From Pseudoalteromonas rubra (GTDB lineage Bacteria; Pseudomonadota; Gammaproteobacteria; Enterobacterales; Alteromonadaceae): a stretch of 64,000 nt of DNA. The stretch is from the NCBI RefSeq assembly GCF_001482385.1, contig NZ_CP013611.1, forward strand, positions 186,001 through 250,000, in the 5' to 3' direction. A program made the position numbers and the translations under genes. The notes under the pieces were generated by a model. That model was not told the origin of the DNA, did not search any database, and saw only the letters and a program-made list of their open reading frames with translations. This document shows positions 25,664-29,189 of this stretch, piece by piece; within the stretch, counting starts at the first letter, position 1, and the number at the start of each line of letters is the position of its first letter.

Positions 25664-26254
25664 CTACTCCTCAGATGTGAGATAGGCGATGCTTTGCTGT
25701 AACAGTTGAGCGCCGCATGGGGTTAAAATTGATTCCGGGTGAAACTGATACCCGATCACCTTATCGTCCGGGTGATAAATCGCCATTGGGATTTCTTCAT
25801 AGTTGGCAATGACTTCCAGGCATTCAGGTACCTGAGTTGCCATAAGAGAGTGATAGCGAGCTACAGGAAAAGACTTACCCAGTCCGTCAAAAACGGGATG
25901 AGGTTTGACACTAATATGGGAAGATTTACCGTGCACTGTCTCACCGGCATGGCCAATGGCGCCACCATAGCTTTGTGTCAGTGCCTGTTGGCCAAGGCAG
26001 ATCCCAAGCATGGGATAGTGACCTTTGCACAGTTCAATCAGCTCAAGTAAACACCCTGCATCTTTAGGTGCACCTGGACCCGGAGACAAAACCAGGATCA
26101 CCGGATCGGTTTCTTGCTGCATCTTGGCAAAAATGGTGCGGGCATCGAGGTGATTACGATACACCACGAGCTCGGCCCCAAGTAGCGACAGCTCATCGAC
26201 CAGATTGTAAGAGAAGGAATCAAAGTTATCGAGAAAATATATCTTAGGGATCAT
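25664..26254 (-). CDS. trpG: TrpG, anthranilate synthase glutamine amidotransferase
   Basis: A 196-residue class-I glutamine amidotransferase that supplies ammonia to TrpE. The catalytic triad is visible: Cys in MLGICLGQQALTQ, His and Glu in YQFHPESILTPCG. LDNFDSFSYNLVDEL and LSPGPGAPKDAG are typical of TrpG/PabA. A stand-alone TrpG in the trp operon points to a tryptophan rather than folate role. The ATG overlaps the trpE stop by 4 bp. Confidence 0.97.
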   Translation of the reverse strand: MIPKIYFLDNFDSFSYNLVDELSLLGAELVVYRNHLDARTIFAKMQQETDPVILVLSPGPGAPKDAGCLLELIELCKGHYPMLGICLGQQALTQSYGGAIGHAGETVHGKSSHISVKPHPVFDGLGKSFPVARYHSLMATQVPECLEVIANYEEIPMAIYHPDDKVIGYQFHPESILTPCGAQLLQQSIAYLTSEE

Positions 26255-27825
26255 GCCGGTGCTCCTGCATAGGTCGATTGAATGGCTTTGATCACGGCAC
26301 TGGCTTTCGCCCGGGTCTCATCGGCCTCGGCTTGTGGGTCAGAGTCATGAACAACGCCGGCACCGGCCTGAACCAGGGCCTGGCCATTTTTGACAAATGC
26401 TGAGCGGATCACGATACAGGAGTCCATTGCGCCATCGCCGGTCAGATAGCCCACAGCACCGCCGTAGCTACCACGTCGTTGTTGTTCTGTGTGCCTGACC
26501 AGCTCAGCCGCTTTGACTTTAGGCGCGCCTACCAGGGTGCCCATATTCATGCTGGCCTGGTATGCATGCAGGGCATCCAGATCTGGTTTCAGCTGACCGA
26601 CTACGCGTGAAACCAAATGCATTACCTGAGAGTACCTGTCAACTTTCAGCAGCTCTTTGGCGTGGCGGGTACCCGGTATGCTGATCCGTGCCACATCGTT
26701 GCGGGCCAGATCAACCAGCATCAGGTGCTCTGCGCGTTCTTTTTGATCGTCTCTGAGTTCCAGTTCGATGCGGCTGTCGAGATCCGGGTTGATACTTCCA
26801 TCGGCGAACTTGCCTCGAGGCCGGGTTCCCGCAATCGGGTATACTTCGACCTGATTACTCTGCTCACAATATTTCAATGCCGATTCAGGAGAGGCACCAA
26901 ATAAAACAAACTCCTCATCACGCATGTAGAACATGTAAGGACTTGGGTTTTGTTGTTTAAGCGCTTTATAGGCCGAGAGGGGATCGGCACAGGGTAAAGA
27001 GAAGGTGCGAGAGGGCACAACCTGAAAAATGTCGCCATCTACGATGTGCTGCTTCAGTTTTACCACCTGCTCTATATAAGCTTCGTCACTGATATCAACA
27101 CTGACCTCACAATTACCTTTAAGCGGGCTTGGTGAGAATGACTCCAAAGCATCACACTGATGATTAAGGACTTCAAGCTGTCGGCCTATTTCAAAACAGT
27201 TAGCATGAACGTCGGGGCCGTTGAATACATTACCTATCAACTCAGTCGTCTGAGCCTGATGATCTATGATCAGCAGGGTCTCCGCCAGGTAAAATACGTA
27301 GTCTGGGCAGCTATTTGCACCGTCCTGAACGTCAGGGAGTTGCTCAAAATTAGCAACCATATCATACGCAAATACGCCGCCCAGAAACAGCGAGAATGGT
27401 GTGTCTGAGTTGCACTTGATACGGTTGATACAGGTTCTGAGCGCGCTAAACGCGTTATCGGCCTTCAGCTTGGCATACTCATCGAGATCGGTCGATGTAT
27501 CCCGATAAGTAATGGTCAGCACAGAGTTATCGAGCGTTACGCCACAGTGTTCTACTTCCTGCGCCAGATATGGCAGAAGTTGCTCGCCGTTGTTGGACAG
27601 CGCTCGTACTATGACATTCTTGCCCTTGCATTCAAAGCGCAGTGCTGTATCGACCAGGATAATGCTTTTTACATTGTCTTTGGAGTCTATTTCTGCAGAT
27701 TCCAGCAACAATGAATTGGGCTTATCCAGCGCTGCGAACAGAGACAAGGGGCTGGCGATATATTCGCGCCGTAACCGAATACTGGTTACTTCCCCGGGCT
27801 GTGTCGTTATATGACTAAAAATCAC
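26251..27825 (-). CDS. trpE: TrpE, anthranilate synthase component I
   Basis: A 524-residue chorismate-utilising enzyme, the committed step of tryptophan synthesis. The feedback site LLLESAEIDSKDNVKS is near the N-terminus; the catalytic domain carries DIFQVVPSRTFSLP, PSPYMFYMRDEEFVLFGASP, PIAGTRPRG, ELRDDQKERAEHLMLVDLAR, GTLVGAPKVKAAEL and GGAVGYLTGDGAMDSCI. The start is GTG at 27825 behind GAGGAATGAGG. First structural gene of the operon, reached only through the two leader terminators described at 27859-28123. Confidence 0.98.
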   Translation of the reverse strand: MIFSHITTQPGEVTSIRLRREYIASPLSLFAALDKPNSLLLESAEIDSKDNVKSIILVDTALRFECKGKNVIVRALSNNGEQLLPYLAQEVEHCGVTLDNSVLTITYRDTSTDLDEYAKLKADNAFSALRTCINRIKCNSDTPFSLFLGGVFAYDMVANFEQLPDVQDGANSCPDYVFYLAETLLIIDHQAQTTELIGNVFNGPDVHANCFEIGRQLEVLNHQCDALESFSPSPLKGNCEVSVDISDEAYIEQVVKLKQHIVDGDIFQVVPSRTFSLPCADPLSAYKALKQQNPSPYMFYMRDEEFVLFGASPESALKYCEQSNQVEVYPIAGTRPRGKFADGSINPDLDSRIELELRDDQKERAEHLMLVDLARNDVARISIPGTRHAKELLKVDRYSQVMHLVSRVVGQLKPDLDALHAYQASMNMGTLVGAPKVKAAELVRHTEQQRRGSYGGAVGYLTGDGAMDSCIVIRSAFVKNGQALVQAGAGVVHDSDPQAEADETRAKASAVIKAIQSTYAGAPA

Positions 27826-27858
27826 ACCTCATTCCTCGTAATTTTTTTAAATTAATCT

Positions 27859-27893
27859 AAAAAAAACCCCCGAAAGCGATTTGCTTGCGGGGG
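27859..27893 (-). terminator. Second (trpE-proximal) attenuator terminator
   Basis: On the minus strand, CCCCCG...CGGGGG (27867-27872 with 27888-27893), with an inner AAGC/GCTT pairing, followed by T8. It ends 33 bp before the trpE GTG. Upstream GCGGG (in TTAGCGGG, just after the second WWW reading frame) can pair with its 5' arm to form an antiterminator. Confidence 0.85.
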
Positions 27894-27924
27894 TCTATGT
27901 ATTAGGTACAAAGATGCCGTCCCG

Positions 27925-27954
27925 CTAACTCAGGCACCACCACCAAGATTTCAC
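27925..27954 (-). CDS. Possible second trp leader peptide (VKSWWWCLS)
   Basis: A short frame, GTG AAA TCT TGG TGG TGG TGC CTG AGT TAG, with three consecutive Trp codons directly before the second terminator module. An in-frame GTG at 27984 would give a 19-residue peptide. Neither start has a convincing ribosome binding site, so translation is uncertain; the Trp-codon run followed by a pairing-competent TTAGCGGG is what suggests a leader. It may be a decayed or low-efficiency copy. Confidence 0.45.
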   Translation of the reverse strand: MKSWWWCLS

Positions 27955-28013
27955 TAGTAAAATAGTTGTTATATTATTGATCACTGTACAATATCTTTTA
28001 GAAAATTTAGCTA

Positions 28014-28043
28014 TAAAAAAACCCGCGTGTTTAGCGCGGGTTT
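28014..28043 (-). terminator. First (promoter-proximal) trp attenuator terminator
   Basis: On the minus strand AAACCCGCG...CGCGGGTTT (28019-28027 with 28035-28043) followed by T7. The 5' arm can alternatively pair with TTAGCGGGT directly after the trpL stop, the classical 2:3 antiterminator; the Trp-codon region GCACTC can pair with GAGT...GTGC as the 1:2 stem. Confidence 0.9.
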
Positions 28044-28078
28044 CGAAAATCTTGCATGCACAACGACTCACCCGCTAA

Positions 28079-28123
28079 TTACGAGTGCCACCACCAAATG
28101 TTGAAAGTTGTTTGCGTTTTCAT
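28079..28123 (-). CDS. trpL: trp operon leader peptide TrpL (MKTQTTFNIWWWHS)
   Basis: A 14-residue reading frame, ATG at 28123 to TAA at 28079, with three tandem Trp codons near its end and an attenuator hairpin 36 bp further on. In the classical model, ribosome stalling at the TGG codons under tryptophan shortage lets the antiterminator form. It is too short for ordinary gene finders. About 30 bp upstream of the ATG begins a -10-like element. No strong Shine-Dalgarno sequence is obvious (GACGACTTAACAA precedes the ATG). Confidence 0.88.
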   Translation of the reverse strand: MKTQTTFNIWWWHS

Positions 28124-28158
28124 TTGTTAAGTCGTCGTTATGTAAATTTAGTAACCAC

Positions 28159-28188
28159 AGTAAACCGCACTATGGGACAAAGTGTCAA
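28159..28188 (-). promoter_or_regulatory. Probable trp operon promoter
   Basis: On the minus strand, a perfect -35 TTGACA (28188-28183) and a -10-like TTTACT (28164-28159) with 18-bp spacing, about 36 bp upstream of trpL. I see no palindromic TrpR operator overlapping it, so attenuation may be the main tryptophan control; this is weak negative evidence. Confidence 0.5.
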
Positions 28189-28343: not shown

Positions 28344-29189
28344 TTGATAAAATACGACTTACACAGTCACAGTACTTTTTCGGATGGTCGTTTGGCGGTC
28401 GGTGCCTTGCTTGAACGAGCAACCGAAAGAGGTGTGGACGTACTTGCCATTACAGATCACGACACCACCGCTGGTCTTGCTCCTGCTCGGGCGTACATCA
28501 CAGATCAGCAGTTGCCGCTGTCGCTTATCTCGGGGGTTGAGATTTCAACCAAGTGGGAGAGCTTTGAAATACACATTGTGGGTCTGAATATAGATGAGTC
28601 GAACAATGCACTGAGCACCTTGCTTGCCAGTCAACAGCAAAAACGTCGTGAGCGCGCTAAAGAGATTGGCGCACGATTGGCGAAGAGGGGTTATGAGGGT
28701 ATCTATGAGCAGGCACAAATACTGGCTGAGGACGCTGAAATAACCCGCGCACATTTTGCCAAAGCACTGGTAGACAGAGGGGTCGCTAAGAATATTCAGG
28801 GTGTGTTTAAAAAGTTTCTGGGGCGTAACAAAATCGGGTATGTGCCCAGCAGCTGGTGCAGCATGGGTGAGGCAATAGACGCGATCCATCAGGCTAGTGG
28901 TGTGAGCGTGCTGGCGCATCCGGGCCGTTATCAGATGTCGAATAAGTGGCTCAGAAAACTACTAAGTGAATATAGTGCAGCGGGCGGCAAGGCAATGGAG
29001 GTCGCACAGCCACAACAGGCACCTTCGGAGCGACAATTTCTGGGTCAGCTGAGTCGTGAGTTTGACTTACTGGCCAGCCAGGGATCTGACTTTCATTATC
29101 CAACGAACTGGTTGGATCTTGGAAAAAATCTATACTTACCAAAAGATTGCCAAGGTGTTTGGCAGTTCTGGGGCGCGACAGAGGAGTGA
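28344..29189 (+). CDS. rnm: RNase AM / 3',5'-nucleoside bisphosphate phosphatase (TrpH, YciV)
   Basis: A 281-residue PHP-domain phosphoesterase. The metal-binding motifs are present: DLHSHSTFSDG near the N-terminus, AITDHDTT, ISGVEIS, VSVLAHPGRY and ASQGSDFHYP. It matches E. coli YciV almost segment by segment (EIHIVGLNID, TRAHFAKALVDRG, FKKFLGRNKIGYVP). Such enzymes act as 5'-3' exoribonucleases maturing 5S/16S/23S rRNA ends and hydrolyse pAp. The start is TTG at 28344; no other start fits before DLHSHS. Divergent from the trp operon, as in E. coli. Confidence 0.93.
   Translation: MIKYDLHSHSTFSDGRLAVGALLERATERGVDVLAITDHDTTAGLAPARAYITDQQLPLSLISGVEISTKWESFEIHIVGLNIDESNNALSTLLASQQQKRRERAKEIGARLAKRGYEGIYEQAQILAEDAEITRAHFAKALVDRGVAKNIQGVFKKFLGRNKIGYVPSSWCSMGEAIDAIHQASGVSVLAHPGRYQMSNKWLRKLLSEYSAAGGKAMEVAQPQQAPSERQFLGQLSREFDLLASQGSDFHYPTNWLDLGKNLYLPKDCQGVWQFWGATEE

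Follow-up and report, generated by a model that had tools for sequence, protein, structure and literature searches.

What does a second trp attenuator add to the first? The trp attenuator is a textbook case of regulation by RNA folding and is drawn as one switch below a repressor, and yet in the window, the 64,000-nucleotide stretch of Pseudoalteromonas rubra DNA analyzed here (contig NZ_CP013611.1, positions 186,001 to 250,000), two complete trp attenuators precede trpE in series on the minus strand. The reading that we favor, and consider probable, is that two ribosome-mediated, Trp-codon-dependent attenuators, both on one leader RNA made from one promoter, work one after the other and so multiply repression.

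In each of module A (28123-28015) and module B (27984-27859), a leader frame with Trp-Trp-Trp is combined with an antiterminator strand and a terminator that has a U tract. Upstream of module A lies a promoter-like pair (28159..28188, minus strand) made up of a -35 element TTGACA at 28188-28183, an 18-bp spacer, and a -10 element TTTACT at 28164-28159, and transcription of the leader would start near 28152. The trpL frame encoding leader peptide A, MKTQTTFNIWWWHS, occupies 28079..28123 on the minus strand and runs from ATG 28123 to TAA 28079, with its Trp codons at 28096-28088. No Shine-Dalgarno-like site stands before leader A in the window (28141-28124). Folding places strand 1 (CACTCGT, 28087-28081) and strand 2 (GCGGGTG, 28075-28069) of module A within 28069..28087. 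The terminator that follows (28015..28043) is formed by strand 3, AAACCCGCG, at 28043-28035 and strand 4, CGCGGG plus T7, at 28027-28015, and strand 3 is also able to pair with strand 2 (GCGGGT/ACCCGC), which is the antiterminator.

Module B follows on the same strand with the same parts. If translation starts at GTG 27984, leader peptide B reads VINNITTILLVKSWWWCLS (27925..27984), with its Trp codons at 27945-27937. Strand 1 (CCTG, 27934-27931) and strand 2 (GCGGGACGGC, 27925-27916) were again placed by folding (27916..27934), and the terminator (27859..27894) consists of strand 3, ACCCCCGC, at 27894-27887 and strand 4, CGGGGG plus T8, at 27872-27859. Here too, strand 3 can pair with strand 2 (GCGGG/CCCGC). 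An earlier note on this DNA had listed leaders, pairings, and terminators for both modules, and every one of these elements was present where it had been placed, as read directly from the sequence. When compared with the Rfam Trp_leader family (RF00513), module A scored 27.9 bits, under the gathering cut-off of 41 bits, and no match to module B was listed up to E 5; parts of module B match two other Rfam families, both under their cut-offs.

The gene behind this leader is trpE (26251..27825, minus strand; Pfam anthranilate synthase component I), which starts with GTG at 27825 and has a GAGG ribosome binding site near 27837. It is the first gene of a trp operon extending down to 21305, in which the downstream trp genes were identified by reading their translations. 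Divergent from the operon is a PHP-domain gene (28344-29189, plus strand) that we take to be trpH-like, and a protein similar to its product is also encoded beside the aro-trp operon of locus L213.

For the genus census, TrpE was located in 108/108 Pseudoalteromonas genomes and the trpE leader was taken from each, giving 30 loci (the window's own included) and 78 further stretches. Both modules with intact Trp runs were present in 104 of the 108 genomes, which places the arrangement beyond chance. These comprise 102 genomes by direct count together with G061, where the two-module layout is accompanied by a third Trp run taken as chance, and G044, where an insertion displaces the modules beyond the search range and the two-module layout is still present. 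Among the others, module B of G021 reads Trp-Gly-Trp, and in G013, G060, and G070 leader B is absent and the single Trp leader precedes a tandem of two terminators. Statistics for module B hereafter refer to 105 genomes (the 104 intact ones and G021), and those for module A refer to 108. The comparison of leaders across Pseudoalteromonas proposed in the earlier note shows that the Trp codons of module B are kept in the genus, with at least two in a row in 104/105 B modules.

A set of 80 named loci, which overlaps the 108 genomes, gave a similar picture, with two Trp runs in 62 of 64 Pseudoalteromonas loci (the exceptions being L075 and L089) and one run of three Trp codons in 16/16 loci from other genera; an additional TGGTGG upstream in L112, from another genus, was taken as chance. 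The closest named relative among the 80 loci is P. rubra S2471 (96% TrpE identity). The strand 2 core of module A is conserved in 26 representatives, and that of module B is found at the same place in 27.

Two of the genomes counted above have local peculiarities. In G044 (L027), terminator B and trpE are 306 nt apart compared with 41 in G072, and the insertion has inverted ends and CTAG flanks, resembling, in our own reading, a small non-autonomous element. In G061, trpE (C2:1770215-1771683) gives two overlapping matching pieces, one of them with two internal stops, and strand 2B is one G short, pointing either to base-level indels or to a broken gene.

The origin of module B was approached through a TrpE tree (97 rows, quick method, SH-aLRT support only), on which the two-module label requires two changes. 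In the simplest history, the second module was gained once, at the root of the genus clade (support 98), and leader B was lost once, in the nested NBT06-2 clade (support 93). Well-supported branches alone force one change only, and the deeper part of the tree, with its long outgroup branches, is unreliable. In G054 and G077-G079, module B still has WWWHSR or WWWHSN and CACTCG..CGGGTG, as in module A, and this resemblance is expected after a duplication of A. Both the single genus gain in the simplest tree and the A-like module B of these genomes fit the suggestion, made when the locus was first read, that the pair arose by duplication followed by drift.

The absence of a good ribosome binding site had been named as the weak point of leader B. 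Leader A has an in-frame ATG start in 108/108 genomes, and for leader B a start in frame lies 9-13 codons upstream of the Trp run in 105/105 (ATG in 93, GTG in 12). A Shine-Dalgarno-like site (-3 kcal/mol or lower) was found for leader B in 93/105 genomes versus 10/108 for leader A; about 25% of random leader positions reach this level, such sites being rarer than that at leader A and commoner at leader B. Across the genus, therefore, the supposed weak point fits A more than B. It does stand for the P. rubra-like group (9 genomes) to which the window belongs, where the B leader reaches the -3 level in 0/9 (GTG starts at -0.9 in five, ATG starts in the other four); the start in the window, GTG 27984, has a Shine-Dalgarno score of only -0.9.

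Where leader B starts in the P. rubra-like group is uncertain. The GTG at 27954-27952, from which leader B had originally been read, was found in none of the other B modules of the 105-genome set, and seven of the other eight P. rubra-like genomes have an ATG one codon after that position. A GTG or ATG located 2-3 codons before the B Trp run occurs in 8/9 P. rubra-like genomes (e.g., L033), in addition to their start 13 codons upstream, versus 2/96 elsewhere, and its recurrence makes it possible that this group has a very short leader B beginning there. Re-initiation by a ribosome that had finished TrpL, offered earlier as a way to translate leader B, is unneeded in most species. In the window it is doubtful, though possible, because 94 nt and the terminator A hairpin lie between TAA 28079 and GTG 27984. 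Decay of module B throughout the genus was rejected on the grounds of its Trp codons, starts, and Shine-Dalgarno-like sites, not on RNA folding.

A 2:3 helix of 4-8 bp could be drawn in 108/108 A and 105/105 B modules, and the terminator of module B has a 3:4 helix of 6-11 bp with a U tract in 105/105. Strand types were then tabulated by script, using 14 of the 16 outgroup loci; in a handful of cases the best helix lay in a register other than the core. The commonest 2:3 pairing is ACGGGC/GCCCGT or AACGGGC/GCCCGTT in the outgroups (10/14), GCGGGT/ACCCGC in module A (30/108), and GCGGG/CCCGC in module B (85/105). At the terminator pair next to CCC, 14/14 outgroup loci have G-C and 108/108 A modules have A-T, whereas module B (n = 105) has C-G in 95, A-T in 5, and G-C in 5. 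From outgroups to A to B, the two strands of the 2:3 helix thus change in concert, and strand 4 changes to match.

Comparisons with shuffled sequences gave mixed results. In a motif-free test of 2:3 pairing, 74/108 A modules beat 95% of their own shuffles, the window's A among them; 26/105 B modules did so (42 beat 90%), and the window's B, at 0.30, was no better than shuffles. When strands were picked by motif, 2:3 beat 95% of shuffles in 100% of A and 98% of B modules, and 3:4 did so in 97% and 95%, a comparison biased toward real sequences since the shuffles were scored at the same offsets. The wrong strand 3 was picked by this motif-based test in G053, G094, and G061, whose terminators are therefore stronger than the computed energies suggest. 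The protector stem 1:2 is visible in the predicted folds of both modules; only 19% of A and 0% of B modules beat 95% of shuffles for this stem, and over a longer region (26 representatives each) the median z was -1.3 for A and -1.2 for B, with +0.9 for the window's B. The pairing statistics of B being weak, the argument for module B draws less on single-sequence statistics than on what is conserved in it, namely the Trp codons, the start with its Shine-Dalgarno-like site, the core of strand 2, and the terminator.

These results bear on a rival explanation in which module B, at least in the P. rubra-like group, has only a vestigial, untranslated leader and serves as a fail-safe terminator, lowering basal expression at every Trp level without sensing Trp. 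The lack of Shine-Dalgarno-like sites at the B leaders of this group is consistent with such a role, as are the 1:2 and 2:3 pairings of the window's B, which do no better than shuffles, and the second terminator that persists without leader B in G013, G060, and G070. A vestigial leader, however, is difficult to reconcile with runs of at least two Trp codons in all B modules except one, with an in-frame start in every B module, all nine P. rubra-like genomes included, and with a Shine-Dalgarno-like site at 93 of the 105. On balance we regard this explanation as unlikely, and prefer two Trp-responsive attenuators in series.

Upstream of module A, a promoter motif was found in 104/105 genomes, the one miss (G044) being a case in which too little upstream sequence was extracted. 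Between A and B, the same rule found the motif in 0/105 genomes. The distance from terminator A to the start codon of B is 14-87 nt (median 24), a short gap that leaves little room for a separate B promoter. With a promoter motif found only before A and a short gap between the modules, B would be reached only by polymerase that has passed A. A promoter of B's own was rejected as an explanation, as judged by a simple consensus, given that the motif pair was absent between the modules.

Full-length TrpR (Pfam PF01371) was found in 0/108 Pseudoalteromonas genomes in a search that gave hits in its E. coli and B. subtilis controls. Short helix-turn-helix pieces matching PF01371 were found in 9/108, one of them barely at the cut-off. 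Among 80 further genomes, three had a full-length TrpR (G112, G108, and G155) and three had a short piece; full-length TrpR was absent in 31/31 other genomes of the window's family (f1), 5/5 of f15, 34/34 of f7, and 3/3 of f13.

Serial attenuation, as we picture it, would proceed as follows. RNA polymerase would encounter module A first, and when charged tRNA-Trp is plentiful the ribosome would clear leader A with its three Trp codons, 2A would be covered or paired with 1A, and the 3A:4A terminator would form, so that most transcripts would end near 28015 (about 138 nt). Transcripts that leak past A would be tested again at module B by its own leader peptide and pairings, and would end near 27859 (about 294 nt). 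When Trp is scarce, ribosomes would stall at the Trp codons of each module independently of the other, and stalling would lead to 2:3 pairing in both and transcription of the operon. Read-through would approximate the product of two probabilities, and basal expression in Trp excess would be lower than with one attenuator, in organisms without detectable TrpR. That transcripts terminate, that ribosomes stall, that leader B is translated, that read-through multiplies, and that the benefit is a stand-in for TrpR is what we infer. Multiplied repression or a wider range of response, the two roles first proposed for the pair, is likely to describe its function, and the doubling probably gives tighter control where the repressor was not found.

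Published values give a sense of scale. In a modelling study, the E. coli trp attenuator, which is single, has a basal read-through of 10-15%, and modelling suggested that, in the Salmonella his operon, which is controlled by attenuation only, a hairpin was added to reduce read-through (PMC1183508). Two independent switches of E. coli quality would, by our own arithmetic, turn 10-15% into about 1-2%. In another study, trpE remained transcribed in about 70% of E. coli cells when TrpR was absent, whatever the Trp level (PMC13178558).

The two modules might instead be coupled. In such a relay, formation of 2A:3A would free strand 4A, which would pair with 3B and thereby also disable terminator B. 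Complementarity of 4A:3B equals that of 2B:3B (mean -11.7 versus -11.4 kcal/mol, 105 genomes), and in G013, G060, and G070 (L179, L180, and L181) the freed strand 4 and strand 3 of the second terminator form an 8-bp hairpin when a partial transcript is folded with 2:3 enforced. When the full RNA of the same genomes was folded with 2:3 enforced, however, the second terminator was preferred. Strand 2B also lies much closer to 3B than 4A does, such complementarity is expected anyway from cores shared after duplication, and the conservation of leader B would need another reason. We therefore consider a relay quite improbable, more so than a vestigial module B. Were it true, a single stalled ribosome could open two terminators, and its purest form would be seen in the three NBT06-2-type genomes, where one leader precedes both terminators.

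The least likely of the alternatives, that the attenuators trip at different Trp-tRNA levels through unequal leader initiation and so widen the response range, would suit the asymmetry of start sites (-3 or better in 10/108 A and 93/105 B) but finds no such asymmetry in the window's own P. rubra-like group; initiation that lacks a Shine-Dalgarno-like site can, moreover, be efficient where the leader is unstructured. Two independent attenuators that multiply repression remain our preferred reading.

How does this arrangement compare with known systems? The modules share with the classical trp attenuator (E. coli trpL; RF00513) a Trp-codon leader peptide, strands 1-4 with predicted 1:2, 2:3, and 3:4 pairings, a CGGG-type strand 2, a U-tract terminator, and a position before trp genes; they differ from it in that two copies stand in series and that no full-length TrpR was found here. 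T-boxes sense tRNA directly, with no leader peptide. Tandem T-boxes and riboswitches, among them the trp T-boxes, also put more than one sensor for one signal ahead of a trp operon (PMC12452182), but tandem trp T-boxes occur in a phylum other than the window's. In Salmonella mgtCBR a single leader RNA likewise carries a pair of short leader frames and tandem attenuators; these respond to different signals (ATP and proline) and are called by the authors a singular example (Lee and Groisman 2012, PMC3641672), whereas here both frames carry Trp codons and look like duplicates. Two attenuator units on one aromatic operon are also described for the aromatic supraoperon of Streptococcus pneumoniae (PMC1173090), as a prediction and for another kind of operon. 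The rimP leader has two terminators in series in gammaproteobacterial leaders, but the excerpted portion of that paper mentions no Trp-codon leader peptide for rimP (Naville and Gautheret 2010, PMC2965389). Among the matches listed from the open-access literature, none described leader-peptide attenuators arranged in series and responding to one and the same amino acid.

Similar pairs were sought outside the genus with R1, a covariance model built from modules A, B, and the outgroups, so that its matches within the genus are not independent. R1 was run on 394 genomes of the order and then on 113 chosen genomes, from which the counts are taken. Adjacent same-strand module pairs were found in 23/34 genomes of f7, 1/3 of f13, and 5/5 of f15, and in 0/31 other genomes of the window's family (f1) and 0/40 genomes of further families. 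For inspection, 20 of the 29 outside pairs were retrieved. In 18 of these 20 loci, both modules were recognized by script together with their terminators and antiterminators, the misses being G185 (first module) and G454; the call of the second module in G145 is doubtful, and two Trp-run leaders are present in 5/5 f15 loci. In our own reading of L211 (G145), the WWW frame of module 2 apparently has no stop before the terminator and would run through the hairpin. Among eight other loci, the RF00513 cut-off was reached by one match, to module 2 of L193.

Downstream of these pairs, the start of a DAHP synthase-like gene was recognized by a simple pattern in 19/20 retrieved loci. The one tested, in L213, matched Pfam PF00793 and PF18152, and in the operons of L213 and L216 the DAHP synthase gene is followed, on reading of the translations, by trpE, trpG, trpD, trpCF, trpB, and trpA. 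A doubled attenuator before DAHP synthase-trp operons (L193-L212, L213, and L216) would subject the aromatic pathway to Trp control from its first step onward.

Elsewhere in the window's family the modules are single, so the outside pairs and the Pseudoalteromonas pair are likely to be separate gains. Doubling was seen only where TrpR was not found, in a search that met only three TrpR-bearing genomes. Loss of TrpR was rejected as a sufficient cause of doubling, as 31/31 other f1 genomes lack both the pair and full-length TrpR. A broader proposal, that gammaproteobacteria without TrpR repeatedly make use of serial trp attenuation and that its modules communicate through shared GCGGG/CCCGC strands, strand 4 of the first acting as antiterminator for the second terminator, strikes us as unlikely when taken as a whole. 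A natural doubling that is kept genus-wide and recurs in families where TrpR was not found would test the limits of a single attenuator, and natural leaders with two modules, with one module, or with one leader and two terminators would offer material for measuring the range and noise of serial termination. R1 also gave same-strand matches about 2.4 kb apart in G288 (C9:32256 and 34618) and G239 (C14:3021 and 5491), which perhaps represent two separately attenuated transcription units in each genome.
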